The notes below the pieces were generated by a model. That model did no database searches and was not told where the DNA came from. It saw nothing but the letters and a program-made list of their open reading frames with translations. Below are positions 34,677 to 53,279 of a stretch of DNA of 57,323 bases, piece by piece (position 1 is the stretch's first letter; each line of letters starts with the position of its first letter). Position numbers and translations under genes: made by a program. The stretch is from assembly GCA_002839355.1 (NCBI GenBank), contig PGXW01000036.1, positions 1-57,323 of the forward strand, in the 5' to 3' direction. Origin of the DNA: Spirochaetae bacterium HGW-Spirochaetae-2 (GTDB lineage: Bacteria; Spirochaetota; Spirochaetia; Sphaerochaetales; Sphaerochaetaceae).

Positions 34677-34704
34677 TGAGATTTGCTAGCAAGGAGACGA
34701 AGGA

Positions 34705-36210
34705 ATGAATAATTTTGAGTTGTTGTTCCAAGGATTCACCGTCGCATTCGCGTTGCCGAACCTGATCGCGGCGCTGTTGGGCGGAATCCTGGGAATCGTA
34801 GTCGGTGCCATGCCTGGCATCGGGGCCGTCACCGGAGTCTCGTTGTTGCTTCCGATGACGTTCAAGCTGAATCCCACCACCGGCATCATCATGTTGGCCG
34901 GCATCTATTATGGAAACATGTACGGCGGCGCCTATAGCGCGACGCTCATGAACATACCTGGCGATTCGCCAGCGGTCATGACCGCCTTGGACGGCTACGA
35001 GCTCACCAAGCAGGGCAAGCCTGGCAAATCGCTGTTCGCCGGCAACATCGCATCGTTCATCGGCGGATCGATCGGCATCATCTTCCTCACTATCTTCGGA
35101 CCGTTGCTGGCGGAAGTCGGATTGAAATTCGGTCCTGCCGAAGTAGCCGCCCTGATCTTCCTCGCCCTCACCTCGATCGGCTGGCTGTTGGGTGACGACC
35201 CCGTCAAGGGTCTGATTGCCTCGGGAATCGGCGTGCTGTTGTCGACCATCGGTATCGACGGCGCCTCCGGACTTCCCCGCTTCAGCTTCGGAAACATGAA
35301 CCTGATCAGCGGCATCTCCTTCATCCCCCTGGTCATCGGCATGTTCGGTTTCAGCCAAGTCATGGAGATGATGCAGCCCAAATCCGATGCCCACATCGAG
35401 CCGGTGAAACAGCTCACCTTGCGTGAGAGCATGCTCGACCGCAGTGAAATGAAGCGGATATTCATGCCCTCGGTGCGAAGTGCCTTGTTGGGCAACTTCA
35501 TCGGGTTCCTGCCGGGTGCCGGCGGTACCACCGGATCGTTTTTGGCCTACGTCATGGAGAAGAAAATAGGCAAGAACAGGGACCAGATGGGTAAGGGTGC
35601 CATCGAAGGGGTAGCCGCCTCGGAAGCGGCCAACAACGCCGCCGCAGTCGGTGCGTTCGTTCCGCTGCTCTCCCTGGGAATACCGGGATCTGCCACGACC
35701 GCAGTCCTTCTCGGAGGCCTGATGATGTGGGGCCTTCGTCCCGGACCGCTGTTGTTCGCCTCGGACCCAACGTTCGTATGGGGCTTGATCAGCTCCATGT
35801 ATATCGGAAACATCGTCTGTCTGATCGCCGGAATGGCGATCATCCCGTTCCTCATGTCCTTCCTCAAGATACCCACCAAAATCATGGCACCGATTATCGT
35901 GATCATCTGTATCGTCGGTTCCTACTCGGTCAACAACAATATGTTCGACGTATGGTTCATGATCTTCGCCGGCATCGGAGCCTTCTATCTGAAGAAACAG
36001 GCGTTCCCCATACCCCCGGTCCTCCTGGCCTTCGTACTCGCACCGCGCTTCGAGATCTCGGTCCGGCAAGCGCTTTCGATATCCAACGGCAATGCGATGG
36101 TCTTCCTGCAAAAACCCATCTCCCTCGGCCTGCTGCTGTTCACGACAGCGTTGCTGTTGGCACCTCTGGTGATGAAACTCATCGCCAAGCTTAAGAAAAG
36201 TTACAAGTAA
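34705..36210 (+). CDS. tctA: tripartite tricarboxylate transporter large membrane subunit, second copy
   Basis: A 501-residue TctA permease. Signatures are GILGIVVGAMPGIGAVTGVS, GIYYGNMYGGAYSATLMNIP, FIGFLPGAGGTTGSFLAY and LGIPGSATTAVLLGGLMMWG, the two-fold duplicated motifs of the family. It pairs with the preceding tctC2 and tctB2 genes as a sodium- or proton-coupled carboxylate importer. Copy 3 of the modular repeat begins directly after the stop codon and separates it from the acid-sugar kinase gene. Confidence 0.94.
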   Translation: MNNFELLFQGFTVAFALPNLIAALLGGILGIVVGAMPGIGAVTGVSLLLPMTFKLNPTTGIIMLAGIYYGNMYGGAYSATLMNIPGDSPAVMTALDGYELTKQGKPGKSLFAGNIASFIGGSIGIIFLTIFGPLLAEVGLKFGPAEVAALIFLALTSIGWLLGDDPVKGLIASGIGVLLSTIGIDGASGLPRFSFGNMNLISGISFIPLVIGMFGFSQVMEMMQPKSDAHIEPVKQLTLRESMLDRSEMKRIFMPSVRSALLGNFIGFLPGAGGTTGSFLAYVMEKKIGKNRDQMGKGAIEGVAASEAANNAAAVGAFVPLLSLGIPGSATTAVLLGGLMMWGLRPGPLLFASDPTFVWGLISSMYIGNIVCLIAGMAIIPFLMSFLKIPTKIMAPIIVIICIVGSYSVNNNMFDVWFMIFAGIGAFYLKKQAFPIPPVLLAFVLAPRFEISVRQALSISNGNAMVFLQKPISLGLLLFTTALLLAPLVMKLIAKLKKSYK

Positions 36211-36268
36211 GGTGCCAGGTACCGATTTTCAATTTTGTATACAAAATGAAAAGTTGGTGCCAGGTACC
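36211..36268. repeat. modular palindromic repeat, copy 3 (compact form)
   Basis: GGTGCCAGGTACC (36211-36223), 8 nt, the perfect palindrome ATTTTGTATACAAAAT (36232-36247), 8 nt, GGTGCCAGGTACC (36256-36268). The total is 58 bp. CTCC-AAA-GGAG follows, placing the ribosome-binding site of the kinase gene in a small hairpin. Confidence 0.9.
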
Positions 36269-36283
36269 TCCAAAGGAGCATAT

Positions 36284-37549
36284 ATGAGACTAGGTGTGAT
36301 AGCGGACGACTTCACCGGAGCAACGGATATCGCCGGCTTCCTGGTCGGAAACGGCATGCGAACGATCATGTTCAACGGCGTTCCCAACCAGGAGCACGAG
36401 TTGGACGCCGACGCCTTGGTGGTAAGCATGAAAATCCGTTCCTGCCCAGTTCCCGAAGCAGTCGACAAGGCCCTCGAGGCACTCGAATTCCTGCAAGCGG
36501 CCAAGTGCGACCGGTTCTACTTCAAATATTGCTCGACCTTCGACTCCACCCATGAAGGCAATATCGGCCCGATCGCCGATGCCCTCATGGCCCGCCTCAA
36601 CACCTCTATGACACTCATCTGCCCAGCGCTGCCGGTCAACGGACGCACAGTATACAAGGGGTACTTGTTCGTCAACGACCAGCTGCTCAGTGAATCGAGC
36701 ATGCGCCACCACCCCATAACACCTATGCGGGATGCCAAGCTCTGCCGACTCATGGAAGGCCAATTCAAGGGAAGCAGTACCCATATCCACTACGAGGACA
36801 TGGCCAAAGGCCCCCAACACATCCGCCAATGCATCGAAACCGCCCGAGCTGCCAACGCGAACTACCTGATTGTCGATGTGCTTGAGGAAGCGCAACTCGA
36901 TGCAATCGCCGAAGCCACCGGGGACTTTCCCCTGGTGACCGGAGGATCGGGCCTCGCGATCGGCATGGCACACCTGCACAACCGAAAGCTTGGCAGACAA
37001 GACACCCCGGCCGCGGGCTTTCTGCCACGTCGTCAACCGGCAGTGGTGATCGCCGGATCCTGCTCGCAGCGGACCAACGAACAGGTCGCCTTGTATCGCA
37101 CGATCGCTCCCTCGCGCTACATCGAGGAAGCTCAATGCCTCGAAAATCCCCAGTACGCACAGGAACTGGCCGACTGGGTCCTCGAGAACAACAACGGCCC
37201 CTACGCTCCGATGGTCTATGCGACCAAGACACCGCAGGAGTTGGAGAAGAGCAAACAGACCTACGGCGATGCCGAAGTCTCCGCCCGCATAGAACAGGTG
37301 ATCGGAACTATGACCAGCCTGGTAGCCACACGCGGAATCAAAAATTACCTGATCGCAGGTGGCGAGACCAGCGGGGTGGTGGCGACCGTCCTCGGACTAT
37401 CATCCTATCTCATCGGTATCCAGATCGACCCGGGCGTCTCATGGATCCGCTCGCTCGACGGGGAGATGCAGCTGGTGTACAAGTCGGGCAATTTCGGCAC
37501 AATCGATTTCTTCAAGAAAGCACAGGAGTTGTACGATGGACAATCTTGA
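36284..37549 (+). CDS. otnK: DUF1537 acid-sugar kinase (3-oxo-tetronate kinase-like)
   Basis: A 421-residue kinase of the DUF1537 family, which phosphorylates oxidised four-carbon sugar acids before decarboxylation. The N-terminal substrate domain begins RLGVIADDFTGATDIAGFLV with the characteristic ADDFTGA motif. The C-terminal nucleotide domain has VIAGSCSQRTNEQV and LIAGGETSGVVATVLG. The ATG at 36284 is preferred because GGAG lies just upstream. It overlaps the aldolase gene by 14 bp, the usual kinase-decarboxylase pairing (OtnK-OtnC). Related kinases act on other oxo-sugar acids such as oxo-isoapionate, so the exact substrate is open. No OtnI isomerase gene is present. Confidence 0.88.
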   Translation: MRLGVIADDFTGATDIAGFLVGNGMRTIMFNGVPNQEHELDADALVVSMKIRSCPVPEAVDKALEALEFLQAAKCDRFYFKYCSTFDSTHEGNIGPIADALMARLNTSMTLICPALPVNGRTVYKGYLFVNDQLLSESSMRHHPITPMRDAKLCRLMEGQFKGSSTHIHYEDMAKGPQHIRQCIETARAANANYLIVDVLEEAQLDAIAEATGDFPLVTGGSGLAIGMAHLHNRKLGRQDTPAAGFLPRRQPAVVIAGSCSQRTNEQVALYRTIAPSRYIEEAQCLENPQYAQELADWVLENNNGPYAPMVYATKTPQELEKSKQTYGDAEVSARIEQVIGTMTSLVATRGIKNYLIAGGETSGVVATVLGLSSYLIGIQIDPGVSWIRSLDGEMQLVYKSGNFGTIDFFKKAQELYDGQS

Positions 37550-38171
37550 AGCACGCCAGGCAATGGTGCGGTACGCCCATATGCTCTACGCACATAAATA
37601 CGCCGTCGGATCGGCCGGCAACATGACCATGAAATTGGAGGACGGCACCTTCCTGGCCACCCCCACCGGATCCTCGTTCGGTTTCCTCAACGTCGAAGAT
37701 GTCTCGCACATCGATGCATCGGGGAACCTCTTGTCGGGCAAGAAGCCGACCAAGGAGATATTCTTCCACCTGGCCTGCTATGAAGTGCACCCCGAGATCA
37801 CCGCAGTCGTACACCTGCACGCCACCTATGCCACCTTGTTGGCCAGCTGCGAAGGTTTGGCCGACGGGGTGCCCATCAAACCGTTCACCCCCTACTTTGT
37901 GATGAAAGTCGGGGCGGTCGGCATCCTTCCCTACCGCAAGCCGGGAGACCCCGCGATAGCCGACGACGTACGCGAGAAACGTGCCTACACGAGCCTGCTC
38001 ATGGCCAACCATGGCTTCATCGTCTGCGGAAAAACACTGGCCGATGCGGTCTCGGCCGCCGAGGAATTCGAAGAGACGGCAAAACTATGGTATCTGGGGC
38101 AATCGCTTCCCATCCGGTATCTCACCGAGGTGGAGATGTTGCATTTGAATCCAAATGCAAAGGCAACATAG
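37536..38171 (+). CDS. otnC: class II aldolase/decarboxylase (3-oxo-tetronate 4-phosphate decarboxylase-like)
   Basis: A 211-residue class II aldolase-fold enzyme. The zinc site is visible as VVHLHATYATLL with HxH and as LLMANHGFIVCG. AGNMTMKLEDGTFLATPTGS is the phosphate-binding start. KEIFFHL carries the catalytic glutamate. In OtnK-OtnC pairs this enzyme decarboxylates the phosphorylated 3-oxo acid to dihydroxyacetone phosphate. The ATG at 37536 has AGGAG 7 nt upstream and overlaps the kinase gene, so translation is coupled. Copy 4 of the modular repeat begins at its stop codon. Confidence 0.88.
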   Translation: MDNLEARQAMVRYAHMLYAHKYAVGSAGNMTMKLEDGTFLATPTGSSFGFLNVEDVSHIDASGNLLSGKKPTKEIFFHLACYEVHPEITAVVHLHATYATLLASCEGLADGVPIKPFTPYFVMKVGAVGILPYRKPGDPAIADDVREKRAYTSLLMANHGFIVCGKTLADAVSAAEEFEETAKLWYLGQSLPIRYLTEVEMLHLNPNAKAT

Positions 38172-38227
38172 TGCCAGGTACCGTTTTATCATTTTGTATA
38201 CAAAACCTAAAGTTGGTGCCAGGCACC
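38170..38227. repeat. modular palindromic repeat, copy 4 (compact form)
   Basis: AGTGCCAGGTACC (38170-38182), 8 nt, a 16-mer around TTTTGTATACAAAA (38191-38206), 8 nt, GGTGCCAGGCACC (38215-38227). It overlaps the stop codon of the aldolase gene. GCAGGAGAGG follows as the ribosome-binding site of the next gene, without the CTCC arm seen in copies 1-3. Confidence 0.9.
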
Positions 38228-38240
38228 GCAGGAGAGGCTG

Positions 38241-39590
38241 ATGAATTATTTTGAGTTGCTGGATACCAGTAGGGCAGGCGAAATCCGAGTGGGAATCATC
38301 GGGGCGAACGGAGGCTTCGGTTATTCGTTCCTCGCCCAGATCCCCATGATCCCATCGATCTCCCTACGGGTGATGTGTGACCTCGACGCCGAAAAATCGC
38401 TGGTGCTGCTGAACGAACTCGGCTACGACTCCAACCGATTCCATCTGTGCCGGACTGCCGACGATATCGCCGCCGCCTTGCTGAAGGATGATGCGATACT
38501 GATCCTGGAGCACAGTCGACTCCTCTCATCGACCGACATCGATGTCCTGGTCGAATCCACTGGTGTCCCCGAGGTAAGTGCCTACGTTGCAGAAGATTGC
38601 CTGCTCAACGGCATCCATGTCTGCATGGTCTCCAAGGAAACCGATTCGGTGGCCGGCCCCTACCTGCACGACCTGGCCCAACGCAACAACCTGATCTACA
38701 CGATCGTCAACGGCGACCAACCGGGCAACCTGGTCCAGCTCTACTCATGGGCAAAGACCTTGGGCTTGGAAATCATAGCCGCCGGAAAATCGAGCGAATA
38801 CGACTTCATCTACGACCCGCAGAACGGCATGTTCGAATATTTGGGTGATGCTTCCCCGATCCCCGAATTCGCTTCCACCTGGACCTTGGAAGGACCTCAG
38901 ACCCTTGTCCGACGCAGGGAGCTGCTCAAGGACTACCCCCAATCCGCGGTTCCCGACTACTGCGAGATGAACGTGGTCTCGAACATCACAGGATTGCTCC
39001 CCGCATGCGACGCCATGCATTATCCGATCTGCCGTGTCGAGGAACTTGCCGATGTCTTTATCCCGATCGAAGACGGCGGTATCCTCGAGAAGACCGGTGT
39101 GGTCGATGTGTTCATCAACCTTAGACGTCCCGACGAAGCCAGCTTCGCCGGTGGTGTCTTCATCATCGTCACCTGCCACAACGAACAAGTCTGGGACCTG
39201 TTGAAAGAGAAGGGACATATCGTATCGCGCAACAAGAAATACGCATGCATGTACCTCCCGTACCACTTCATGGGAGTGGAAGCCCCCATGTCTGTTCTGC
39301 TAGCCAGCCTGAAGCGGATGTCGAGCTCGCAAGGCTGCCACAGGGTCTCCAAGATGGTCGGAACCACCGTCCGGGACTTCTCCAAAGGCGAATTGCTCGA
39401 GGTGAACGGCCACCACCACGTGATCGAAGGTGTCGATGTCTCTCTGGTCCCCCACGATTCGGTCGGACCCGAAGTCATCCCGTTCTACCTGATGGCCGGC
39501 AAGACCCTCTCTCGCGACATACCAAAGGACACCGTCCTTACCCTCGACATGCTCGATACCACGAACTCGACGCTCTTAAGGATGCTGTAG
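38241..39590 (+). CDS. NAD(P)-dependent dehydrogenase with C-terminal SAF domain
   Basis: A 449-residue protein of the family labelled predicted homoserine dehydrogenase (COG4091). The Rossmann domain begins RVGIIGANGGFGYSFLAQIP. A catalytic-type region contains VMCDLDAEKS and VESTGVPEVSAYVAED. The C-terminal 70 residues form an SAF domain (GPEVIPFYLMAGKTLSRDIP, KDTVLTLDML). It lacks the signs of a threonine-biosynthesis operon. Its place after an acid-sugar kinase-decarboxylase pair suggests it oxidises the imported sugar acid to the oxo form used by the kinase. That assignment is inference. Confidence 0.78.
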   Translation: MNYFELLDTSRAGEIRVGIIGANGGFGYSFLAQIPMIPSISLRVMCDLDAEKSLVLLNELGYDSNRFHLCRTADDIAAALLKDDAILILEHSRLLSSTDIDVLVESTGVPEVSAYVAEDCLLNGIHVCMVSKETDSVAGPYLHDLAQRNNLIYTIVNGDQPGNLVQLYSWAKTLGLEIIAAGKSSEYDFIYDPQNGMFEYLGDASPIPEFASTWTLEGPQTLVRRRELLKDYPQSAVPDYCEMNVVSNITGLLPACDAMHYPICRVEELADVFIPIEDGGILEKTGVVDVFINLRRPDEASFAGGVFIIVTCHNEQVWDLLKEKGHIVSRNKKYACMYLPYHFMGVEAPMSVLLASLKRMSSSQGCHRVSKMVGTTVRDFSKGELLEVNGHHHVIEGVDVSLVPHDSVGPEVIPFYLMAGKTLSRDIPKDTVLTLDMLDTTNSTLLRML

Positions 39591-39713: not shown

Positions 39714-39746
39714 AATTGACACGTATTCATGGAAGGACGAAACAAC

Positions 39747-41369
39747 ATGGCACCTGGCGGTACACTGACGGTCGTTGCGGAGGATCGCGTTTGGAATCTC
39801 ACCGGTGCGGGCGGACGGACTATGCTCGAACTGCTCGTCGAGGCGGGAATCGAAGGATATGTCTCTCCCTGCGGCGGCAACGGACTGTGCGGCAAGTGCC
39901 TGGTCCGGATAAGCGAAGGCACAGCGGGAGCAGTCCATGACGATGAACACCGGTTGCTGACACCAGCACAGCTGCAGGACGGATTGCGCTTGGCCTGCCG
40001 CATGAAATATGACGGCGATGCGGATCTGACGATAACGCTGCTTGACGCAAGTGCCCGGGGCAACATCCTGACCACATTCAATAACGAAATGCCATGCGGA
40101 ACCCCACGTCGGCACTACCATGCAGAGACCTATGGATGCGCCATCGATATCGGGACCACCACGATCGTGGTGTACCTGGTGCGACTGGATACCCGACAGG
40201 TCATCGGCCACCGCTCGGCAATGAACCGGCAACGCTCACACGGTGCGGATGTGATCAGCCGCATCCAATACGCGCAGGAACATCCCGACGGTACAAGAAT
40301 CCTCCAACATGCGATCGTCGGGCAACTGGATGCCATGATCGGGGACCTCCTGACAAGCCATGGCATTCCCAGCGAAGCCATAAGCGAACTGGTTGCGGTC
40401 GGAAATCCGACCATGATCCACCTGCTGGTGGGGGCAGACACCAGCGGCATCGGTGCCGCACCGTTCACCTGTGCATTCACCGAACCGCGATCCCTTCGAG
40501 GTGTGGACATCGGACTCGACAATGCCCGCCATGCGCACCTGGAACTGCCGGGGGCAGTCGCCGCCTACGTGGGCTCGGACATCACCTCGGGCGTACATGC
40601 GGCCAACATCATGAGAAGTGGCAAACCGGTGTTGTACATAGACATCGGCACCAACGGCGAAATAGTCCTGTGGGACGGCAAACGGTTGTCCGCCTGCGCA
40701 TCGGCCGCAGGACCCGCATTCGAAGGCGCTGCCATCCGCCACGGCCTGGGAGCCGTACCCGGAGCAATCGACCACATCTGGCACCACCCTGACGGCCGCA
40801 TCGCCTGGTCGACCATCGGCGCACAAGACGCCCACGGCATATGCGGCTCGGGCATTGTCGATACCATGGCACTGCTGCTCGACCTCGGTCTGGTGGACGA
40901 AACCGGCGCCATGGACACCAGCCACCCGAACGCCGACCGCTATCTGACCGACTCCCCCGACGGCCTGGCCCTGCGCATCACCGACACCATCCATTTCACC
41001 AGAACCGACGTGCGCGAAGTACAATTGGCCAAGGCCGCTATCGCCGCCGGCGCCCAGGTATTGTTGGACGCAGCGGGCCTGGCCAGCGACGAACTCGAAG
41101 GCATAGTCATCGCCGGGGGCTTCGGCTCCTACATAGACATCGCCAGCGCCCAACGGATCGGCCTGTTGCCGCCGGTTTCGCCCTTCCGCATCTCGGTGGT
41201 GGGCAACGCCGCCGGCAAGGGAGCCCTGGAACTGCTCATGTTCGACGGCGTACAAGGTCAGATCGAGCAGATCCGGACCGCAATCGCCTACATCGAACTG
41301 TCGTCATCACCTGCCTTCCAACAGCAATACGTCTCCCACATGTACTTTGGGGAGGACCCAGACGCATGA
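39747..41369 (+). CDS. corrinoid protein reductive activator (RACo/RamA-like ferredoxin-ASKHA protein)
   Basis: A 540-residue protein that should reduce inactive Co(II) corrinoid proteins to Co(I) using ATP. An N-terminal plant-type 2Fe-2S ferredoxin domain has CGGNGLCGKC (cysteines near 42, 48 and 51) and a fourth cysteine in LACRMKY. The remainder is the DUF4445/RACo ATPase of the ASKHA fold (CAIDIGTTTIVVYLVRLDT, VLYIDIGTNGEIVLWDG, GICGSGIVDTMALL, VIAGGFGSYIDI). The ATG at 39747 follows AAGGA at 9 nt. A second ATG at 39729 has no site. It is the first gene of the corrinoid module and overlaps the regulator gene by four bases. Confidence 0.92.
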   Translation: MAPGGTLTVVAEDRVWNLTGAGGRTMLELLVEAGIEGYVSPCGGNGLCGKCLVRISEGTAGAVHDDEHRLLTPAQLQDGLRLACRMKYDGDADLTITLLDASARGNILTTFNNEMPCGTPRRHYHAETYGCAIDIGTTTIVVYLVRLDTRQVIGHRSAMNRQRSHGADVISRIQYAQEHPDGTRILQHAIVGQLDAMIGDLLTSHGIPSEAISELVAVGNPTMIHLLVGADTSGIGAAPFTCAFTEPRSLRGVDIGLDNARHAHLELPGAVAAYVGSDITSGVHAANIMRSGKPVLYIDIGTNGEIVLWDGKRLSACASAAGPAFEGAAIRHGLGAVPGAIDHIWHHPDGRIAWSTIGAQDAHGICGSGIVDTMALLLDLGLVDETGAMDTSHPNADRYLTDSPDGLALRITDTIHFTRTDVREVQLAKAAIAAGAQVLLDAAGLASDELEGIVIAGGFGSYIDIASAQRIGLLPPVSPFRISVVGNAAGKGALELLMFDGVQGQIEQIRTAIAYIELSSSPAFQQQYVSHMYFGEDPDA

Positions 41370-42736
41370 GCAGCAAAGGACACCACACCGACGGACACCC
41401 TGTAGACATACACCAAAAGGAAGGAATTCCCCAAGGCGTGCAGGACATCGCCGAACACTACGGCAATGCCACAGGCATTCCCTGCATGATCCTGGACATC
41501 GGCCGCGGACGCCTGCAAGGAACCACCTGCGAACTGTGCAGCGAACTCAACCGGAGCGCCGGGCAGAGCATCGGAGAGCACTGCCTGCACATCCATCAGC
41601 ACCACGCGCAGCTTGCCGAACGCTTCGGCGGCGCCTACGTCTACTTCTGCACCTGCTCGATGCTCTATTGGATCAGCCCCGTGCTGATCGAAGGGATCAT
41701 GGAATACGCGATCGTGGCCGGACCCGTCATGGTCATGGAACCGGATGAAGCCCTGGACGATGCCGACCTGCCCGACCACCTGTCCCGACAGCGGGCACGG
41801 GAACTGCTGGGTCACCTGGTGCGTGTTGACATCCACCGGGTCCACCACCTATCGGAAGTGTTGCGCATGTGCGCGGGCTGGGCCTCGGGGTATACGGAAC
41901 ACCGCATGGTGGAGTCCCAGCAAGCCCTGCAAATGCAATCCAAACTCTCCGAATTCATCCAGCACATGAAACAGCACCCCCTGGAGGAGAACGCATCGGA
42001 ACGGTATTATCCGATCGAGAAGGAACAGCAACTGCAGGATGCGATCAAGTGGGGGGACCACAAGGAAGCCCAGCGGATCATGCAGGAACTGCTCGGATTG
42101 CTGTTTCTGGGTGATGCCTTGACGACGGAACACACCAACTTTCGCATGTTGGAACTGGTCTCGCTGCTGTCGCGGGCGGCTATCCAAGGCGGAGCGCCCG
42201 TCGATGAGGTCATGGAAGCACGTGCCCGCAACCAGCGGGAGGTCGGCCGATACACGGGCATCGAAGGAGTCTCGCAGTGGTTCTCGCGCATCCTGCGCAC
42301 CTATACCGACCTGGTGTACGCCGCCAAGGATGCCGAGTACGGAGTGGGGTTGTCGCGGGCCCTGCGGTACATCCGCACGCACCATGATCAACGCATCACC
42401 TTGGAACAGACCGCCGCCGCCGTATCGTTGAGCGCACCGTATCTAAGCCGCCTGTTCAACGAACGGTTGCACGTTTCGTTCACCACCTACATCAACCGGT
42501 TGCGCATCGAGCGCTCGGAGCAGCTGTTGGTGCAGACCCGACTGCCCCTGGTGGAAATTGCGGGCCTGGTCGGATTCGAGGACCAGAGCTACTTCTCGAA
42601 GGTGTTCAAGCGGATCACCGGCACGACACCCGGACAGTACCGCAACCGGGGAGGACGATTCCCCTCCGATACCCACGAGATCCATGAGACCCACGGGATC
42701 CACAATGCCAGCGGGGACGCATCACAGAAACCATAA
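41366..42736 (+). CDS. PocR-sensor AraC-family regulator
   Basis: A 456-residue regulator. Residues 20-190 form a PocR ligand-sensing domain with the cysteine pattern of that family (CELCSELNRSAGQSIGEHC, YFCTCSMLYWISPVL). A linker follows, and the C-terminal 100 residues carry two AraC helix-turn-helix motifs (VSLSAPYLSRLFNERLHVSF, ITGTTPGQYR). PocR domains control propanediol and corrinoid-dependent methyl-transfer genes in other bacteria. The ATG overlaps the RACo stop codon as ATGA, with GGAGG 10 nt upstream. It probably controls the corrinoid genes in response to the methylated substrate or a reduced carbon ligand. Confidence 0.88.
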   Translation: MSSKGHHTDGHPVDIHQKEGIPQGVQDIAEHYGNATGIPCMILDIGRGRLQGTTCELCSELNRSAGQSIGEHCLHIHQHHAQLAERFGGAYVYFCTCSMLYWISPVLIEGIMEYAIVAGPVMVMEPDEALDDADLPDHLSRQRARELLGHLVRVDIHRVHHLSEVLRMCAGWASGYTEHRMVESQQALQMQSKLSEFIQHMKQHPLEENASERYYPIEKEQQLQDAIKWGDHKEAQRIMQELLGLLFLGDALTTEHTNFRMLELVSLLSRAAIQGGAPVDEVMEARARNQREVGRYTGIEGVSQWFSRILRTYTDLVYAAKDAEYGVGLSRALRYIRTHHDQRITLEQTAAAVSLSAPYLSRLFNERLHVSFTTYINRLRIERSEQLLVQTRLPLVEIAGLVGFEDQSYFSKVFKRITGTTPGQYRNRGGRFPSDTHEIHETHGIHNASGDASQKP

Positions 42737-42824
42737 GATAGTACAAAAAATGACAATATCGTTACAGATTGCTGGCAACCGGTGGGCTACCGTTCTTATG
42801 ATACCCTGAAGGGGAGGAAGCAGT

Positions 42825-43463
42825 ATGGCTGACATGGAAGCGTTGTCCGGATACCTGCAGAAAGGCAAGGCGAAGGAAGTCAGGGAACTGACACAACAAG
42901 CCGTGGACGATGGGATGAAACCCGAGGAGATCCTCGACCAGGGTCTTCTGGCGGGTATGAACGTGATCGGATTGAAGTTCAAGAACAACGAAGTATTCGT
43001 CCCCGAAGTGTTGATCGCCGCACGGGCCATGAACGCCGGAATGGAAATCCTGAAACCGTTGTTGGCGGCTGCCAATATGCACGATCGCGGCACCGTGGTG
43101 ATCGGAACCGTGAAGGGCGACCTGCATGATATCGGCAAGAACCTGGTCGGCATGATGATGAAAGGCAAAGGCCTGCAAGTGATCGATTTGGGTACCGACG
43201 TACCTCCCAAACGCTTTGTGGAGGAGGCACTCGCCCACCATGCCCAGATCATAGCATGCTCGGCACTGCTGACGACAACCATGAAAGAGATGGAGCAAGT
43301 GGTGAAGGCGGTGCGCGATGCCGATCTGCACGGAACGGTCAAAGTCATGATCGGTGGTGCCCCGGTGACCGAATCGTTCAGGAACACCATCGGGGCCGAC
43401 CGGTACACATCCGATGCGGCGACCGCCGCCGAAGTGGCGTTGGAACTGTGCAGCGGCAGATGA
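42825..43463 (+). CDS. corrinoid (B12-binding) methyltransferase protein
   Basis: A 212-residue methyl carrier of the MtaC/MtbC/MttC type. Residues 1-85 are the helical cap domain (EEILDQGLLAGMNVIGLKFK). Residues 90-212 are the B12-binding Rossmann domain with the base-off cobalt ligand motif GDLHDIGKN (His near residue 101), SALLTTT and the nucleotide-tail glycine pair in MIGGAPV. It should shuttle a methyl group between a substrate and an acceptor and be rescued by the RACo protein. GGGGAGGAAG lies before the ATG. It is separated from the PocR gene by 88 bp and from the methyltransferase gene by 13 bp. Confidence 0.94.
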   Translation: MADMEALSGYLQKGKAKEVRELTQQAVDDGMKPEEILDQGLLAGMNVIGLKFKNNEVFVPEVLIAARAMNAGMEILKPLLAAANMHDRGTVVIGTVKGDLHDIGKNLVGMMMKGKGLQVIDLGTDVPPKRFVEEALAHHAQIIACSALLTTTMKEMEQVVKAVRDADLHGTVKVMIGGAPVTESFRNTIGADRYTSDAATAAEVALELCSGR

Positions 43464-43476
43464 ACAGGAGTTTCCA

Positions 43477-44823
43477 GTGACAGGAAAAGAACGGGTGATC
43501 GGAACAATCGAGGGACGCAAGACCGACAAGGTGCCATGGGTGCCGTTCACCGGCGTGCATGCCGGAAAGTTGCTCGGTTACCATGCCCGGACCGTCTCGA
43601 CGGACGTCGATTCGGTGGTCGAGGCCGCCTGCGAGGTCAACCGGCTCTACCACCCCGACGGCCAGCCGGTCATGTTCGACCTGCAGATCGAAGCCGAGCT
43701 CCTGGGATGCGAAATGCTCTGGTCGGACGATGGCCCTCCGAGCGTCAGCAGCCATCCGCTGGCCGAAATCACCACGATACCCACAAGAATCCCAGGACCT
43801 ACCGAGGGTCGCCTCGAGGTGGAACTCGAAGCCACACGCCGGTTGAAAGCGGCGATAGGAGCCACCACCGCCTTGTACGGTGTCTGCACCGGACCCTTCA
43901 CGCTGGCCTCGCACCTGCGGGGTACCGAGATATTCATGGACCTGATCCTCGAACCCGAGTATGTGCACGGATTGCTCGCCTATGCCACCACGGTCGTCCA
44001 GGCGGTCTGCTCCTACCTGATCGAAGCCGGAATCGACGTGGTGGCGGTCACCGATCCGCTCATCTCCCAGATATCGCCCGACCACTTTGCCCAGTTCATG
44101 CACGGACCATTCACCCGGGTGTTCGACACTATCGGCGAACAAGGGGCCAAATCCTCCTTCTTCGTATGCGGAAACGCCACCAGGAACATCGAACCGATGT
44201 GCCGAACCGGGTGCGACAGCATCTCGGTCGACGAGAATGTGGATCTGGCCACTGCCAAGACGACCACAGACCGCTATAAGATCACCTTGGGCGGCAATAT
44301 TCCCCTCACCTCGGTCATGCTCTTCGGCAATCAGCTGGATAACATGAAGGCCGTGGTACAGCTGATCGACTCGGTACCGGCCGGCCGGTTGATCATCTCC
44401 CCCGGGTGCGACATGCCCTATGATACCCCCATCGAGAATGTCATAGCCGCCGAGCATGCGGTGCACGAAACCGACAGCGCCCGAGCCATGGTGCGCAACT
44501 ACGAGCGCAAGGATATCGGATTTGCCGGCACTTTGCCCGACTATGGACAGTTGGAAAAACCCCTGGTCGAGGTATTCACCCTCGATTCGGCGACCTGTGC
44601 CGCATGCACCTATATGTGGGCCGCCGCCTTGGATGCGGTGGCGCATATCGATGCCGCCATCGATGTGATCGAGTACAAGTATACGGTGCCCGAGAACATC
44701 GCCCGCTGCCGGGAGGTCGGGGTGAAACAGTTGCCCAGCATCTACATCAACGGCAAACTGGCCTACTCCTCGATCATCCCCAGTCGCGACGAGCTGGTTG
44801 CGCGTATCCGCGAGGTGCTCTGA
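43477..44823 (+). CDS. UroD-type methyltransferase fused to a thioredoxin-like domain
   Basis: A 448-residue protein. Residues 1 to about 340 are a uroporphyrinogen-decarboxylase-fold methyltransferase of the MtaA/MtbA/OdmB group, which moves methyl groups to or from corrinoid proteins. The usual zinc motif H-x-C-G appears as FFVCGNAT: the cysteine near 231 is present, but the histidine position is Phe229. The second cysteine is in SPGCDMPYDTP. Residues from about 360 form a thioredoxin-like domain with LDSATCAACTYM (C-x2-C) and a cis-proline-type VKQLPSIYINGKL. Translation starts at a GTG with CAGGAG 6 nt upstream. The fusion suggests that a thiol pair replaces or regenerates a metal or cobalt site. 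Whether it demethylates the substrate or serves the acceptor side is open. Confidence 0.88.
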   Translation: MTGKERVIGTIEGRKTDKVPWVPFTGVHAGKLLGYHARTVSTDVDSVVEAACEVNRLYHPDGQPVMFDLQIEAELLGCEMLWSDDGPPSVSSHPLAEITTIPTRIPGPTEGRLEVELEATRRLKAAIGATTALYGVCTGPFTLASHLRGTEIFMDLILEPEYVHGLLAYATTVVQAVCSYLIEAGIDVVAVTDPLISQISPDHFAQFMHGPFTRVFDTIGEQGAKSSFFVCGNATRNIEPMCRTGCDSISVDENVDLATAKTTTDRYKITLGGNIPLTSVMLFGNQLDNMKAVVQLIDSVPAGRLIISPGCDMPYDTPIENVIAAEHAVHETDSARAMVRNYERKDIGFAGTLPDYGQLEKPLVEVFTLDSATCAACTYMWAAALDAVAHIDAAIDVIEYKYTVPENIARCREVGVKQLPSIYINGKLAYSSIIPSRDELVARIREVL

Positions 44824-45830
44824 TGCCACCGGCGGTACCATTTCCGACAGAGCTTCGGCGCACATTGCCACCGATAGGACTCCACATCGTCACCGGATTC
44901 CTTGGCTCGGGGAAGACCTCGGTCATCAACAGCCTGCTGGGGCATCTGAAGGATCGCAAGATCGCCCTGATCACCAATGATTTCGGTCCCATCGCCGTCG
45001 ATAGCGCATTGGTGGCCGCCAGTTCAGCGGTGGTTGCCACCAAGAGTCTCAGCGGAGGACAACTGTTCTGCAGCTGCCTCTCCGGATCGTTCGTCGATAC
45101 GGTGGAAGCATTGCTAGCCTATGATCCGGATATGATCATCGTGGAGGCCTCGGGGTTGGCGAAACCAGCTCCGCTGTTGGAGATCGTTTCGGTGATCACC
45201 AATCGGAGTGCAGGGCGGGTAACCTATGGCGGCATGCTCTGCGTAATAGATGCCTCGCGCTACCATCTGCTTTCGCAGGCCATCACCACACTGGAGGAGC
45301 AACTGGTATTCAGCGATGCGATTATCCTGAACAAGACCGATCTGGTCGATTCCCCGACGCTGGCGGCGGTGACGGCGGAGGTGCAAAAGATCCGTCCACT
45401 CGCCCCCTGCTTTGCGACCACCCGTGGAACCATCAGGGCCGACATGCTCTCCCTCTGGGAAGCGGATGTCGATTGGGAGCACAAACGCTCGATCGACGCA
45501 ACTGCCTACAAGGGGTGGGGTGTCCACGGACGGCCGAAGACTGTGGTGTTCTCCATCGAGGGGAATTGGGAGCCGGCGATGTTGGAGGCCTTGCTTGCCG
45601 AGACCTCTGTGCACATGTTGCGCATGAAAGGCTTCCTTCCCTACGGCGACGGGAAGGCTTGGAAGGTCGATGCGGTGGGACCATACGTCCAGGTGGGCAT
45701 GTGCGACATGCCGGTGGGAATCGAAACCGGGGTGGTGGGCATCCATGCGGCAACGGTCGATGCCAAGACGCTGCTGCTTGCTACCTGGAATCGGATAGCC
45801 ACACACGGGGCCCGTCTTGTCGTATCTTGA
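44823..45830 (+). CDS. CobW/G3E-family GTPase
   Basis: A 335-residue G3E GTPase, the family of metal and cobalamin chaperones. The P-loop is HIVTGFLGSGKTSVINSLLG. ITNDFGPIAVDS follows as switch I. The family metal site, normally C-x-C-C, is reduced to FCSC (cysteines near 82 and 84). VEASGLAKP and LNKTDLVD are the further nucleotide motifs. A C-terminal domain is present but short. The ATG shares one base with the stop codon of the methyltransferase gene. In this setting it probably delivers cobalamin or zinc to the corrinoid protein or the UroD-type enzyme. Confidence 0.88.
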   Translation: MPPAVPFPTELRRTLPPIGLHIVTGFLGSGKTSVINSLLGHLKDRKIALITNDFGPIAVDSALVAASSAVVATKSLSGGQLFCSCLSGSFVDTVEALLAYDPDMIIVEASGLAKPAPLLEIVSVITNRSAGRVTYGGMLCVIDASRYHLLSQAITTLEEQLVFSDAIILNKTDLVDSPTLAAVTAEVQKIRPLAPCFATTRGTIRADMLSLWEADVDWEHKRSIDATAYKGWGVHGRPKTVVFSIEGNWEPAMLEALLAETSVHMLRMKGFLPYGDGKAWKVDAVGPYVQVGMCDMPVGIETGVVGIHAATVDAKTLLLATWNRIATHGARLVVS

Positions 45831-45860
45831 TGCACAGGGCCGTCGAAGGAGCGAAACGGA

Positions 45861-46562
45861 ATGGTTGTCCACATGACACAGGAGCCGATGCTTATACAGG
45901 TACCATTCTCGCCCTCGCTGTCCCAGTACCACCACAGCATCCGCTTCGATGCGCTTGACGATGCGCAAGTGGAGGCCCTGCAACTGTTCGACGATGCAAC
46001 CAGGCTGTTGCAGCCGAAGGTGCTGCTGCGCCAATTGTTCATCGATTCACACGATATGGTCGCAGGGGTGCCGTCGGTGGTTATCGGCTCCGAACGGTTT
46101 GTCGGGAATGCCATGGCTGCCTTGGACGAGGTGCATCGGGTGATTGTGTACGTCGCCACGTGTGGAGATGGCATGGAATCGTACGACCTTAGGCGGTTGG
46201 ACATGCTCGCACCGTATTGGCTCGATGCGATCAAGAACCAAGCCCTGGGTGCGGCCCGGCGCGGACTACTGGAGTATTGCAAGATACACTTCGGTATTTC
46301 CAAGCCGTTGAGTGTGAATCCCGGTTCGGGAAATATCGATCTGTGGCCCATCGAGCAGATGCACGGCCTGTTCCGGATGCTCGGAGAACGGGGAGCCGAA
46401 CCGATCGGGGTGCGCTTGACCGAAAGCTCGCTCATGGTCCCCAACAAGTCGATAGCGGGCTTGCTCTTCGCTTCGGCGAAATCCGACTACGAGAGCTGCG
46501 CGTACTGCGACCGGGAACTGTGCCCCCAGCGGCGGGTAGCACGGAGTGGGGAAACTATATAA
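45861..46562 (+). CDS. stand-alone MetH-activation-domain-like protein
   Basis: A 233-residue protein similar to the AdoMet-binding reactivation domain of cobalamin-dependent methionine synthase, which remethylates oxidised cobalamin with AdoMet. Recognisable regions are VNPGSGNIDLWPIEQMHGLF and RLTESSLMVPNKSIAGLLFA. The C-terminal cysteine cluster ESCAYCDRELCPQRR (C-x2-C-x4-C) is absent from the MetH domain and could hold an iron-sulfur cluster or zinc. GAAGGAG precedes the ATG, and an ATG at 45873 is an alternative. It is the last gene of the corrinoid module. Its likely job is repair of the corrinoid protein or donation to the methyl acceptor. Confidence 0.82.
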   Translation: MVVHMTQEPMLIQVPFSPSLSQYHHSIRFDALDDAQVEALQLFDDATRLLQPKVLLRQLFIDSHDMVAGVPSVVIGSERFVGNAMAALDEVHRVIVYVATCGDGMESYDLRRLDMLAPYWLDAIKNQALGAARRGLLEYCKIHFGISKPLSVNPGSGNIDLWPIEQMHGLFRMLGERGAEPIGVRLTESSLMVPNKSIAGLLFASAKSDYESCAYCDRELCPQRRVARSGETI

Positions 46563-47988: not shown

Positions 47989-48031
47989 TGTGAATCAGTG
48001 CGATCATAGATCAAGAAAAGGAGGATTTCAA

Positions 48032-48859
48032 ATGGATCATGTCGTGAGTGTGAGTACGAATACGTATCATGGTTTTACCTTGGAAGAAGCCCTGAGGGGA
48101 ATTTCGGCGGCCGGATACACCCATGTTGAGCTGACTGGAGTCGCTGGGTGGACTGAACACGTGCATGCGAAGATGTCCGATGCCGAATTGGAGGACGTGA
48201 AGGCCCTAATGGATTCCTATGGCTTGAAACCAATCGGATTGAGTGGCCATTGCAATCTTATGGACCCCGATCGCCTTGCCGATTTTATGGCGAATATCGA
48301 GTTGGCAGGTAAATTGGGATGCACATACATCGTATCCTCAACAGGAGAAGCCCATAACTCCAAGAACGAGAACACCAAAGATGAATTGTTGGTGGCAAAC
48401 CTCAGAAAAATCCTTCCGCTTTGTGAGGAAACCGGTGTCATGTTGGTGCTGGAGATCCATGGGGAACATGCTACCGGTGCCCAATTGCGAAAGATTGTCG
48501 ACATGGTCGGTTCGCCTCACCTTGGTATCAACTACGACACGGCAAATGTCGTGTTCTACGGAAAGAAGATGCCTGACGAAGATGTGAAGGATTGTGCGAA
48601 ACAGGTCGCCTATGTCCACCTCAAGGATAAGGGCGGCGCACCTGATGTCTGGGACTTTCCGGCTCCGGGTAAAGGATGGCTGAAACTGGAAGACACATTG
48701 AAATACCTCGATTCCCAAGGTTTCGATGGACCGATAAGCGTGGAAATCGAATTCACGCAGGAATTCACCATGCGGAAAAAGAATCCCGAAGACCTTCCTG
48801 TCGTGGATGCCGCAGTCGCCGATGCCCACAGATACCTGTCTTCGATTGGGTATGTGTGA
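48032..48859 (+). CDS. sugar phosphate isomerase/epimerase (xylose isomerase-like TIM barrel)
   Basis: A 275-residue AP_endonuc_2/xylose-isomerase-like barrel. Metal-binding and catalytic positions are suggested by LVLEIHGEH (Glu and His), GINYDTANVVFYG, VAYVHLKDKG and SVEIEFTQEF. The family includes IolE-type dehydratases, tagatose epimerases and hydroxypyruvate isomerases, so the reaction cannot be fixed. The ATG at 48032 follows AAAGGAGG. It is 43 bp after the ROK gene and precedes the ABC transporter. A second barrel of this type lies later in the same operon. Confidence 0.8.
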   Translation: MDHVVSVSTNTYHGFTLEEALRGISAAGYTHVELTGVAGWTEHVHAKMSDAELEDVKALMDSYGLKPIGLSGHCNLMDPDRLADFMANIELAGKLGCTYIVSSTGEAHNSKNENTKDELLVANLRKILPLCEETGVMLVLEIHGEHATGAQLRKIVDMVGSPHLGINYDTANVVFYGKKMPDEDVKDCAKQVAYVHLKDKGGAPDVWDFPAPGKGWLKLEDTLKYLDSQGFDGPISVEIEFTQEFTMRKKNPEDLPVVDAAVADAHRYLSSIGYV

Positions 48860-48873
48860 GGAAGTGCCATATC

Positions 48874-48893
48874 TCCCGTTGTTCGGGACGGGA
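48874..48893 (+). terminator. intercistronic stem-loop before the sugar-binding-protein gene
   Basis: TCCCGT pairs with ACGGGA around an 8-nt loop. There is no T-tract. It may be a processing or attenuation site. Confidence 0.35.
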
Positions 48894-48966
48894 ACGTTTG
48901 AGTAGTGAGACGAGTATGGGATCGGTTCGTTGGACCACACCATACAGTTAATAAGGAGGAGTTTGT

Positions 48967-49950
48967 ATGAAGAAATTCACATGGGTCTTAGGGGTAATCC
49001 TCATTGTCCTGATCGCATCTCCGTTGTTTGCCGCTGGAACAAAAGAGAAAGTGAAGGACGGGTATACCTTCGGGTACATAGCATATGACATGCAGGACAT
49101 ATGGAATATGTACGGTGCCCAGGCATTCGAATATGCGGCTGATCAGGTTGGAGTCAAGACCATAGTACTTGACTCAGGTAACAGTCTCGAACGTTCGGTG
49201 GCTGCGATGGAAGACCTGATCCAGAAACAGGTGGACGGTATTTCGGTATTCCCAATCTCTCCAGATCAGGTGGCAACACTGATCAAGATGGCGAATGATG
49301 CGGGTATCCCGATAACTGTCGAGAATCTACCTCCACCGGAGAATGCCGGAGACTACATCTCCACAGTTGCTTGCCTGTATGGAGATATCGGGTATGCAGC
49401 CATCAAATTCATTTCGGAAACCATGCCTGGAGCCCGAATTTTCTATGCGGCTGGCGCGAAGGGCGGCGGTGTATATGAACAGTACCAGGAAGGTGTGGAC
49501 AAGGCTCTGAAGGAATTCACCAACGTGAAGATAGTTGGTCTGGAACATGGCGACTGGCAGACGGAAATGGCAATGAACGTAACGCAGAACTTCATCCAGA
49601 CGGGAACTAAGTTCGATGTCATTTTCGCCAACAACGACCTTATGGCAAAAGGCTCCTACAACGCGTTGGTCGAAGCTGGTCTGAAACACATCCCGATCAT
49701 CAGCACTGGAGGGTCCCCCGATGGTATCCAGATGATGAAAGATGGTATCGAAGCTGCCAACATGACAGCTCCCGTATCGATCCAGGGTGTCCAGACATTC
49801 AAGAACTTGTACCAGTATGTGGTGCAGGGCAAGCGTGACCTGCCCAAGTTCACTCCGTTGCCGATTGTTCCTGCCACCGCAGCGGAAATCGACAAGGTCA
49901 TCACGTGGGAAGATCCCCAGAAGGCACTCGATTATATCGGCGGCCTCTAG
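48967..49950 (+). CDS. sugar ABC transporter substrate-binding protein (RbsB type)
   Basis: A 327-residue periplasmic sugar receptor. The signal peptide is MKKFTWVLGVILIVLIASPL with cleavage near FAAG. The two-lobed type 1 binding fold is indicated by YTFGYIAYDMQDIWNMYGAQ, LIQKQVDGISVFPISPDQV, GIPITVENLPPP and DVIFANNDLMAKG followed by GYNAL-like residues. Acidic and aromatic residues in these loops usually bind a pyranose or furanose. AAGGAGGAG precedes the ATG. It is followed by the ATPase and permease genes of the same importer. Specificity is unknown. Confidence 0.92.
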   Translation: MKKFTWVLGVILIVLIASPLFAAGTKEKVKDGYTFGYIAYDMQDIWNMYGAQAFEYAADQVGVKTIVLDSGNSLERSVAAMEDLIQKQVDGISVFPISPDQVATLIKMANDAGIPITVENLPPPENAGDYISTVACLYGDIGYAAIKFISETMPGARIFYAAGAKGGGVYEQYQEGVDKALKEFTNVKIVGLEHGDWQTEMAMNVTQNFIQTGTKFDVIFANNDLMAKGSYNALVEAGLKHIPIISTGGSPDGIQMMKDGIEAANMTAPVSIQGVQTFKNLYQYVVQGKRDLPKFTPLPIVPATAAEIDKVITWEDPQKALDYIGGL

Positions 49951-49968
49951 GATCGGCATGAGACGATT

Positions 49969-49996
49969 ATTCGTCCCGGGTTTTCCCGGGACGAAT
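49969..49996 (+). terminator. strong intercistronic hairpin after the sugar-binding-protein gene
   Basis: ATTCGTCCCGGG pairs perfectly with CCCGGGACGAAT around a TTTT loop. There is no following T-tract. Such hairpins keep receptor message more abundant than that of the membrane components. Confidence 0.75.
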
Positions 49997-50037
49997 CCTA
50001 TCCGAGCCACAAACGTTTGTGGACAAGGTGCAGTGGT

Positions 50038-51549
50038 ATGAGTTTTTCGTATGAAGGAATTTCTCCGCTCGTCAGAATGGTGAACATCTCCAAGTCTTTT
50101 CCTGGAGTCCAGGCATTGTTGGACATTACCTTCGACCTTTTTCCTGGAGAAATCCACTGTCTTGTCGGAGAAAACGGGGCAGGCAAATCGACTTTGATGA
50201 AAGTGCTCAGCGGAGCGCACAGCCCTGACGGTGGACAGATCATAGTCGACCAGCGAGTCCATAATGCATTGACCCCAAAGTTATCGCAGGAGCTGGGTAT
50301 CAGCATCATCTATCAGGAAAACCACCTGATTCCTACCATGAGTGTGGCGGAGAACATGTTCGTGGGAGTAGAAAAAACAAGGACGCTGGGTCTTGTCGAC
50401 AAGGCCAAGACCAGACAAGCCGCCGCAGAAGAGGTTGAGAACCTCGGTATCGATCTAGATGTGTCCCGAAAGGTCGAGGATCTTTCGGTGGCAGAGCAGC
50501 AATTTGTCAAGATTCTCAAGGCATTGGTCCATAGGCCGCGTATCCTGCTCATGGACGAACCGACATCCATGTTCAATGTCAAGGATGTCGGAACTGTGCT
50601 TGCCTTGACCCGAAAAATTGCTAGCAAGGGAATCAGCATCATCTATATTTCCCACTTTCTCAAGGAAATCGTGCAGATTGCGGACCGGATTACCGTGATA
50701 CGGGACGGGAGTGTGGTCAACACCTATCTGAATGCGGAAAAGGATATCGATCTCGATATCGTGACCATGGATATGGTGGGACGTCCGGTGAACATGTTCT
50801 ATCAAAAGGAACAGCACGATATCGGCGAGGTTGTACTGAAAGTCACCGACCTGCAGCTCTCGAAGAATTCACCGAAGGTTTCGTTCGAAGTCCGCAAGGG
50901 TGAGATATTGGGATTTGCAGGCATGGTCGGTTCGGGAAGAACCGAGATCATACGCGCACTGACCGGTGCTGACAAGTTCTTTGCCGGCACGATCGAATAC
51001 CATGGAAAGAGACTCGATTTGCATAGCCCTGCCGATAGCATACGACAGGGGTTCGCACATATCACCGAAGATCGCCAGCAATTGGGATTGATGTTGGGGA
51101 AAAGCATTTTGGAAAACATGACTATTGTCGGGATGGGAGCGAAAATTCGGGGATTTTTTCTCAATATCAAGAAGCACCCGCCGTTCATCATGCCGTTGGT
51201 CGATTCCTTGGATATAAAGACCCCCTCGGTGTTCCAGGAAGTCCAGAATTTGAGTGGGGGAAACCAACAGAAGGTGGTGCTAGGCAAATGGCTTTTCGCC
51301 GATTCCGACTTCTACGTGTTCGATGAACCGACACGGGGTATCGATGTAAATGCGAAAGCGGAATTCTATCGGTTGATGTCGATGCTCACCAAAGAGGGCA
51401 AATCTATCATTATGGTCTCCTCCGACATGCCTGAACTCATATCGATGAGTGACCGTGTGCTGGTGGTACGCAAGGGTGCGGTAACAGGTGAGATTCCCAA
51501 AGGGGAAATCACGGAAGAGCGGATAATCAAAAGCGCATTGGGGATGTAG
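50038..51549 (+). CDS. sugar ABC transporter ATPase, tandem domains (RbsA type)
   Basis: A 503-residue protein with two ABC ATPase domains. The first has Walker A LVGENGAGKSTLMKVLSG, an altered signature region VEDLSVAEQQFVKI and Walker B ILLMDEPTS. The second has the degenerate P-loop GFAGMVGSGRTEIIRAL and a full signature NLSGGNQQKVVLGKW with FDEPTRGIDV. This is the standard layout of ribose-type importers. The ATG at 50038 follows AAGGTG at 8 nt. It lies 4 bp before the permease gene. Confidence 0.95.
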   Translation: MSFSYEGISPLVRMVNISKSFPGVQALLDITFDLFPGEIHCLVGENGAGKSTLMKVLSGAHSPDGGQIIVDQRVHNALTPKLSQELGISIIYQENHLIPTMSVAENMFVGVEKTRTLGLVDKAKTRQAAAEEVENLGIDLDVSRKVEDLSVAEQQFVKILKALVHRPRILLMDEPTSMFNVKDVGTVLALTRKIASKGISIIYISHFLKEIVQIADRITVIRDGSVVNTYLNAEKDIDLDIVTMDMVGRPVNMFYQKEQHDIGEVVLKVTDLQLSKNSPKVSFEVRKGEILGFAGMVGSGRTEIIRALTGADKFFAGTIEYHGKRLDLHSPADSIRQGFAHITEDRQQLGLMLGKSILENMTIVGMGAKIRGFFLNIKKHPPFIMPLVDSLDIKTPSVFQEVQNLSGGNQQKVVLGKWLFADSDFYVFDEPTRGIDVNAKAEFYRLMSMLTKEGKSIIMVSSDMPELISMSDRVLVVRKGAVTGEIPKGEITEERIIKSALGM

Positions 51550-51553
51550 TCAT

Positions 51554-52525
51554 ATGGAAAATCAAGAAAGGAACAATTTGTTGAATCGGATTCAATTCAA
51601 AGACCAACGGGTACTCATGATGATTGTCATTCTTCTCATTACGGTAGTGGTGACAATCATCAGCCCAAAATTTGTCGACATCAGGAACATTGTTGCGATT
51701 TTCCAGCAAGTCTCGGTTCTCGGTATCCTGACGATGGCGATGGCAATGCTGCTTATCAGTGGTGGGATCGACTTGTCTATAGGAAATATCATGGTGCTCT
51801 CAGGCGTGGTGATCTCCAAGATTATCATGGGGGGAGGCAGTGTTCCTGTGGCGGTCCTGTTGGGACTGATTACGGGGTTGGTCTGCGGGTTTCTCAATGG
51901 GTTGATCATAGCAAAAAGCAAATGTCTCCCATTGATCATCACCTTGGGAACCAGCCAGATATTTTTCGGTGCCTCGTTGATGATTACCGGCGGTCGCTTC
52001 ATGAACTTTAGTGGAAAATTCGACTTTATCGGACGTACCCGGATACTGGATGTGTTTCCGGTCATGCTGATTTTTCTCATCGTAATGGTTCTGTTTGCCT
52101 TTGGCTTGCTCAACTATACCCGTTTCGGCAGACGAATCGTGGCCATCGGTGGCAACGAACGAAATGCGTATCTTTCAGGAATAAATATTGATCGGTACAA
52201 GGTGGCGATCTATTCGATTGGAGGCTTGATCAGTGCAATAGCCTCCATAGTCTTCGTCTCACGGCTCGATTCGATTACGGCAACCGCAGGGAGCGGGTAT
52301 GAATTGCGGGCACTTACGGCCGCAATCATCGGTGGTGTCACATTCGATGGAGGGAAGGGGACGATTGGTGGAGCATTTATCGGTGTCCTGCTGTTGGGAA
52401 TTATCAACAACGCCATGAACATCCTCTCGATCTGGCCCTATGCACAGACAGCAATATCCGGTGCGATCATTGTGGTGGCAGTAATATTGAGCAATCTGGA
52501 CACTATCCGTAAAGCAAGCAGGTAA
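51554..52525 (+). CDS. sugar ABC transporter permease (RbsC type)
   Basis: A 323-residue membrane protein with about eight to ten hydrophobic segments. Family motifs are AMAMLLISGGIDLSIGNIMV, GLVCGFLNGLIIAKSKCLPL, LIITLGTSQIFFGASLMITG, FGRRIVAIGGNERNAYLSGI and the cytoplasmic ATPase-contact stretch YELRALTAAIIGGVTFDGGKG. It completes the RbsABC-like importer. The next gene begins 28 bp later. Confidence 0.94.
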   Translation: MENQERNNLLNRIQFKDQRVLMMIVILLITVVVTIISPKFVDIRNIVAIFQQVSVLGILTMAMAMLLISGGIDLSIGNIMVLSGVVISKIIMGGGSVPVAVLLGLITGLVCGFLNGLIIAKSKCLPLIITLGTSQIFFGASLMITGGRFMNFSGKFDFIGRTRILDVFPVMLIFLIVMVLFAFGLLNYTRFGRRIVAIGGNERNAYLSGINIDRYKVAIYSIGGLISAIASIVFVSRLDSITATAGSGYELRALTAAIIGGVTFDGGKGTIGGAFIGVLLLGIINNAMNILSIWPYAQTAISGAIIVVAVILSNLDTIRKASR

Positions 52526-52553
52526 TTTTGATAATCATATCAGGAGGAGTCGA

Positions 52554-53258: not shown

Positions 53259-53279
53259 ACGGAAAAGGAGAGGACTAGT

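Follow-up and report, generated by a model that had tools for sequence, protein, structure and literature searches.

The gene at 43477-44823 (+ strand) of the window, the whole analysed stretch of 57,323 nucleotides from an anaerobic bacterium, encodes a 448-residue fusion of a UroD/MtaA-type barrel and a thioredoxin domain (hereafter UroD-Trx), in which a Phe takes the place of the zinc-binding His. UroD-Trx apparently represents a clade-defining, widespread and undescribed branch of corrinoid methyltransferases, present in at least three phyla. A thiol, and not folate, is probably what this branch exchanges methyl groups with. The fuller proposal, that UroD-Trx is a thiol-side corrinoid methyltransferase with a rebuilt metal site and a built-in dithiol, is in our judgement about evenly poised between right and wrong. 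It is built directly on sequence, fold, clade-locked residues and operon partners, from which we infer the direction of transfer, which acceptor and which metal are used, and what the dithiol does.

The reading frame, coordinates and motifs of the gene are as the first-pass annotation had described them. It is intact and conserved, which rules out a pseudogene or a frameshift. Translation starts at a GTG at 43477 (MTGKE), and the TGKE start is kept in relatives. Only 13 nt separate it from the end of the corrinoid protein gene, and its 3' end overlaps the start of the CobW gene. The barrel (residues 1-331; 43477-44469, +) matches PF01208 (E 4.6e-54). Its nearest solved relative, by fold and as closest solved sequence, is M. 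mazei MtaA (24% identity). MtaA structures 4ay8 and 4ay7 ranked at the top for the barrel (VIA Z 43, rmsd 1.7-1.8 Å across 326 residues), and UroD-Trx scored 153.8 bits against TIGR01463 (MtaA/MtbA), below the 235.4-bit cut-off. The full predicted model has a pLDDT of 92.8 and a pTM of 0.90.

The extra C-terminal domain, already suspected to be thioredoxin-like from its C-x2-C and a Pro, is well supported. Pfam, the family profile, the model and Foldseek all point to a thioredoxin fold at residues 361-448 (44557-44820, +). Pfam Thioredoxin_3 matches residues 371-442 with 23.5 bits, slightly below the 24.8 cut-off, and the family profile matches the archaeal thioredoxins 1nho (E 1e-6) and 1fo5 (E 4e-5). 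Folded alone, the domain adopts a thioredoxin fold (pLDDT 95), its Foldseek matches being thioredoxins with a TM of about 0.7. The two cysteines of its C-x2-C, C374-A-A-C377 (44596-44607, +), and the conserved P420 at the cis-Pro position (44734-44736, +) are invariant in a 68-row alignment. So are P354 and Y356 of the linker, which suggests a fixed domain arrangement. In a covariation analysis (110 sequences, effective number 82), the strongest inter-domain pairs scored below the strongest intra-domain ones and were spread across the barrel. Five divergent proteins (loci L158-L162) carry a second thioredoxin-like domain. Another member of the divergent clade, L163, has S-T-M-C instead of the C-x2-C; it has lost C374 yet keeps F229, C231 and C311, so that the dithiol is not strictly needed there.

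In an alignment with M. mazei MtaA (4ay7), HICGN of MtaA corresponds to FVCGN of UroD-Trx. Phe229 thus occupies the His position and the adjoining Cys ligand is retained (F229-V230-C231; 44161-44169, +), while C311 (SPGCDMP; 44407-44409, +) aligns with the later Cys of MtaA as the second conserved zinc-type Cys, just as the first-pass annotation had read it. All 110 fused homologs share F229, C231 and C311, ruling out chance or a sequencing error, and Phe is found in none of 32 unfused MtaA-like His-Cys-Cys relatives. The expectation that Phe always goes with the fused domain is therefore borne out by the family alignment, both features deriving from one branch. The fused set comprises 110 distinct proteins (98 close and 12 from a divergent subclade) and spans Spirochaetota, Bacillota and Chloroflexota. 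A scan across genomes yielded 279 encoding stretches, of which we retained 80, and further genomes were reached by added searches. A plasmid collection search returned one record only.

In a quick maximum-likelihood tree of 68 proteins, a single branch (SH-aLRT 100, length 0.89) held every fused protein. This single origin indicates that the link between Phe and fusion was one event retained since, and not a repeated coincidence. Two unfused UroD paralogs (L057:1440-2495 and L072:1484-2548) are exceptions nested inside the fused clade. Both have lost the thioredoxin tail and both metal-site Cys, and thus look like inactive paralogs. The earlier concern that unfused relatives might also lack the His applies to these two degenerate proteins only. 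At their loci, the degenerate paralogs lie with MtmB-like, corrinoid, CobW and intact UroD-Trx genes, and they could be inactive partners. In the open-licence literature we found no description of a UroD-thioredoxin corrinoid fusion.

The first-pass annotation spoke of a lost zinc ligand. The His is indeed absent, but this does not establish loss of the metal: every member of the clade has E253 and H146, and the site may have been rebuilt. Fourteen positions are invariant in the 110 fused proteins (D68, E72, E74, H146, D193, F229, V230, C231, G232, D252, E253, N254, C311 and D312), and the presence among them of C231, C311, E253, H146, D252 and D312 indicates a pocket under strong selection. 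Outside the fused clade both E253 (2 of the 32 unfused His-Cys-Cys relatives) and H146 (3 of 32) are rare. E253, in a DEN motif 22 residues past C231 (44233-44235, +), is a candidate zinc ligand. H146 (43912-43914, +), located in the model on the helix after strand 3, is a candidate for an alternative ligand or a substrate contact.

T. maritima MetE holds its zinc by His618, Cys620, Glu642 and Cys704, which lie where strands 5, 6 and 8 end (PMC539065). In the UroD-Trx model F229 is the last residue of strand 5, and strands 6 and 8 span residues 248-250 and 305-307, respectively, which puts C231, E253 and C311 at places corresponding to the MetE ligands. The Cys-Glu spacing is 22 in both proteins (C231-E253 and Cys620-Glu642). 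Comparison of the UroD-Trx family profile with E. coli MetE by hhalign gave no usable alignment, and the fold comparison with MetE gave a Z of ~22; the match of E253 to Glu642 is accordingly one of spacing and strand position only. E253 may be the equivalent of the MetE Glu zinc ligand. The clade-invariance of E253 and H146, the MetE-like placing of C231, E253 and C311 and the CobW neighbours described below lead us to favour a rebuilt metal site over no metal site. COG0523 genes also adjoin the zinc-dependent mtaA/mtaB in methanogens (PMC2770081).

UroD-Trx belongs to a series of closely spaced genes at 39729-46562 (+). It is preceded by a RACo/RamA-type corrinoid reductive activator (39729-41369, +; PF14574, PF17651), a PocR-domain AraC regulator (41360-42736, +; PF10114, PF12833) and a corrinoid protein of the MtgC/MtbC type (42825-43463, +; PF02310/PF02607). 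Downstream lie a CobW/COG0523 GTPase, a putative metallochaperone (44817-45830, +; PF02492, E 1.5e-38), and a stand-alone MetH-type activation domain protein (45861-46562, +; PF02965, E 8.9e-8) that is found in 11 of the 80 related loci. Corrinoid protein and reductive activator are thus encoded together, as in corrinoid methyltransferase operons. Spirochaete relatives retain the same gene set. Across the 80 loci CobW recurs in 65, the corrinoid protein in 54, RACo in 33 and PocR/AraC in 32.

The genome itself encodes two UroD proteins of MtaA-like type. The second, a possible partner methyltransferase (56133-57143, +; PF01208), retains H-x-C and the later Cys (LHICGN / SAGCEIP), all three ligands, as the first-pass annotation had noted when offering it as an internal comparison. 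It closes a sugar-type operon (47990-57143) with an ABC importer, a PIG-L deacetylase, two xylose-isomerase-like proteins and a GFO/IDH/MocA oxidoreductase, the substrate of which could be a methylated sugar derivative. Just upstream of the UroD-Trx operon, the window holds a probable tetronate catabolic cluster (26152-39590) with two tripartite tricarboxylate transporter sets, an OtnK-like kinase, an OtnC-like aldolase and a DRL oxidoreductase. We rejected these tetronate-type genes as part of the system, as they lie beside UroD-Trx only in the near-identical locus L003. A PF02607 search of the genome retrieved the operon corrinoid protein, MetH and one 362-residue B12-binding_2 domain protein, which leaves the operon protein as the only methyltransferase-type corrinoid protein found there besides MetH. 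A search for MTTB in the same genome found none.

The source of the methyl group seems to vary. At 21 of 100 loci the fetched flanks contained a further candidate methyltransferase for loading the corrinoid, drawn from three families (15 loci with UroD, 4 with MTTB and 4 with MtmB, two of them having MtmB alongside a degenerate UroD); in about four fifths of loci the fetched flanks held no other demethylase. UroD-B12-binding fusions, that is, a demethylase joined to a corrinoid domain, lie upstream of UroD-Trx at L033:1570-3576 and L044:2702-4681, about 0.3 kb and 1.3 kb from its start, respectively. At L036, L062 and L070 the end of a UroD gene is about 60 nt or less from the UroD-Trx start. 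Because unrelated enzymes cover the loading step, the acceptor side is the best assignment for UroD-Trx. Four MtmB-family (monomethylamine methyltransferase) homologs (L053:218-1624, L057:4492-5961, L072:4491-5957 and L080:11008-12408) are bacterial open frames with no in-frame stop, apparently lacking pyrrolysine, and a UroD gene at L138 / L111 (G144:C11:29824-30690) carries one in-frame TGA.

Folate appears to be a less likely acceptor than a thiol. No PF00809 gene lies within 10 kb of UroD-Trx in 21 carrier genomes, the nearest match being a DHPS-like protein 12 kb off in G155. In the genome studied here no folate methylase gene occurs within 20 kb of UroD-Trx, and its only PF00809 protein is a full-length MetH on another contig. 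Three genomes (G144, G160 and G164) yielded no PF00809, MTHFR or Meth_synt_2 protein, and acetyl-CoA synthase was absent from 21 of 24 carrier genomes, absences that carry little weight in unfinished genomes. They nevertheless make a thiol such as sulfide or homocysteine likelier than folate, and suggest that most carriers do not send the methyl group into the Wood-Ljungdahl pathway, and that some have no known enzyme to pass it to folate. Of 30 carrier genomes, 26 encode an MTHFR-family protein (MetF/PF02219 search), a mixed outcome for the argument against folate, which stays a possible acceptor in those genomes. In the divergent subclade, loci L158, L159, L161 and L162 contain a PF00809 protein, L158, L159 and L161 a formate-THF ligase, and L158, L161 and L162 MTHFR-like and Etf genes. 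These folate genes suggest that there the methyl group may exchange with folate, with the flow reversed. Some of the same four loci also hold a formate transporter. Homocysteine methyltransferase genes occur in 8 main-clade loci, mostly in Chloroflexota. Both clades fit a UroD-Trx that can link methylcorrinoid to methyl-thiol, with flow either way.

MtaA methylates a thiol, coenzyme M. A thiol acceptor is thus not the change of mechanism that had been suggested for the loss of the His. We propose instead that UroD-Trx would work on the thiol side, dependent on the corrinoid protein, as MtaA/MtbA do with coenzyme M. RACo would reduce the corrinoid protein, and a substrate-specific demethylase, differing between genomes, would methylate it. 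UroD-Trx would then shuttle the methyl group between a thiol and CH3-Co(III), the likeliest thiol being a small one such as sulfide or homocysteine. In the metal site, C231 and C311 would stay and E253 would take the MetE Glu position; the site would be completed either from the substrate, through its thiol, or from the protein, through H146 or a thioredoxin Cys. CobW may aid metal loading, and the dithiol built in with the thioredoxin domain could hold either the site or the acceptor thiol in reduced form. A more specific version is speculative, and we think it improbable as a whole: UroD-Trx as a folate-independent methyl outlet of fermenting anaerobes, transferring methyl from methylcorrinoid to sulfide (or homocysteine) at a metal site of Cys2-Glu type that lacks His, with a thioredoxin domain supplying or protecting the acceptor thiol. 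Such an outlet could explain methanethiol from anaerobes that strip methyl groups off their substrates.

The absolute loss of the His in the clade, together with the invariant C-x2-C of the 68-row alignment, would also suit a redox variant devoid of catalytic zinc. C231 and C311 would then be free thiols or a disulfide, and the thioredoxin domain would reduce them at each turnover or switch the enzyme off when oxidised, the redox control that the first-pass annotation had raised. Zinc-free methyltransferases of the UroD fold do exist, CdmB being one (PMC13222342). However, the presence of CobW at 65 of the 80 loci argues for a metal, E253 became fixed together with F229, and L163 keeps F229, C231 and C311 despite its altered C-x2-C, so we regard this explanation as unlikely. 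The thioredoxin Cys might itself replace the His as metal ligand, or be the methyl acceptor as a protein-bound methyl carrier. The dithiol and the Phe are co-inherited from one branch and the linker residues P354 and Y356 are invariant, as such a role would have it. Nevertheless, L163 keeps the rest without C374. Moreover, a partner thiol has no means of freeing a Cys that has become a methyl thioether, which speaks against the acceptor role, and we consider this idea very doubtful.

It could also be argued that UroD-Trx is a donor-side MT1, which would take the methyl group from a common methylated compound and load it on the corrinoid protein, while another enzyme passes it to folate or homocysteine. 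The PF00809, FTHFS, MTHFR-like and Etf genes of the divergent clade and the homocysteine methyltransferase genes of the 8 main-clade loci are in line with this. On the other hand, MT1 enzymes of unrelated families, one of them an MT1-corrinoid fusion, are encoded alongside UroD-Trx, no PF00809 gene was found within 10 kb in 21 genomes, and searches of three genomes gave no methyl-folate enzyme. A donor-side role therefore seems improbable to us, and thiol-side transfer over a rebuilt metal site is the reading we retain.

If this reading is right, a large branch of corrinoid methyltransferases handles methyl groups without folate in most carriers, and the clade is a natural test of a zinc thiol-alkylation site working without His. 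In freshwater sediments, methanethiol and dimethyl sulfide are reported to come mainly from sulfide methylation linked to O-demethylation, in review passages that name no enzyme for the sulfide methylation step (PMC7374477). The UroD-Trx clade would be a concrete candidate for that enzyme.

UroD-Trx shares with MtaA/MtbA (TIGR01463; 4ay7, 4ay8) the UroD barrel, two zinc-type Cys, a corrinoid protein and Ram/RACo and CobW-type neighbours. It differs in the Phe for the His ligand, the fused thioredoxin domain, the 24% identity and a score under the TIGR01463 cut-off. MetE is related in fold, its zinc ligands sit where strands 5, 6 and 8 end, and its Cys-Glu spacing is again 22; unlike UroD-Trx it keeps His618, uses methyl-folate and no corrinoid, and gave no sequence-level match. 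CdmB, which is zinc-free, and the O-demethylase UroD proteins likewise have a UroD fold acting with corrinoid proteins, but they are donor-side and have no thioredoxin domain (PMC13222342). The closest solved sequences to the C-terminal domain are MJ0307-type archaeal thioredoxins (1fo5, 1nho), with C-x2-C and cis-Pro position in common; these are free-standing, whereas that of UroD-Trx is fused to a methyltransferase. The nearest published group is the Mlps of type 1 mlp clusters, bacterial MtaA-like proteins found with a corrinoid protein and an activator and no folate methylase (PMC10418091). For them Kountz and Balskus proposed S/Se methyl transfer, assaying ClMlp2 with selenide, and described the ligands as invariably His-Cys-Cys, several Mlp1 excepted, with no mention of a thioredoxin fusion (PMC10418091). 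A type 1 cluster has at least two Mlps, a corrinoid protein and an activator, with gaps up to 2 kb and no folate methylase gene within 20 kb (PMC10418091); the UroD-Trx operon shares the last trait and has one UroD protein, the other lying 11 kb away.
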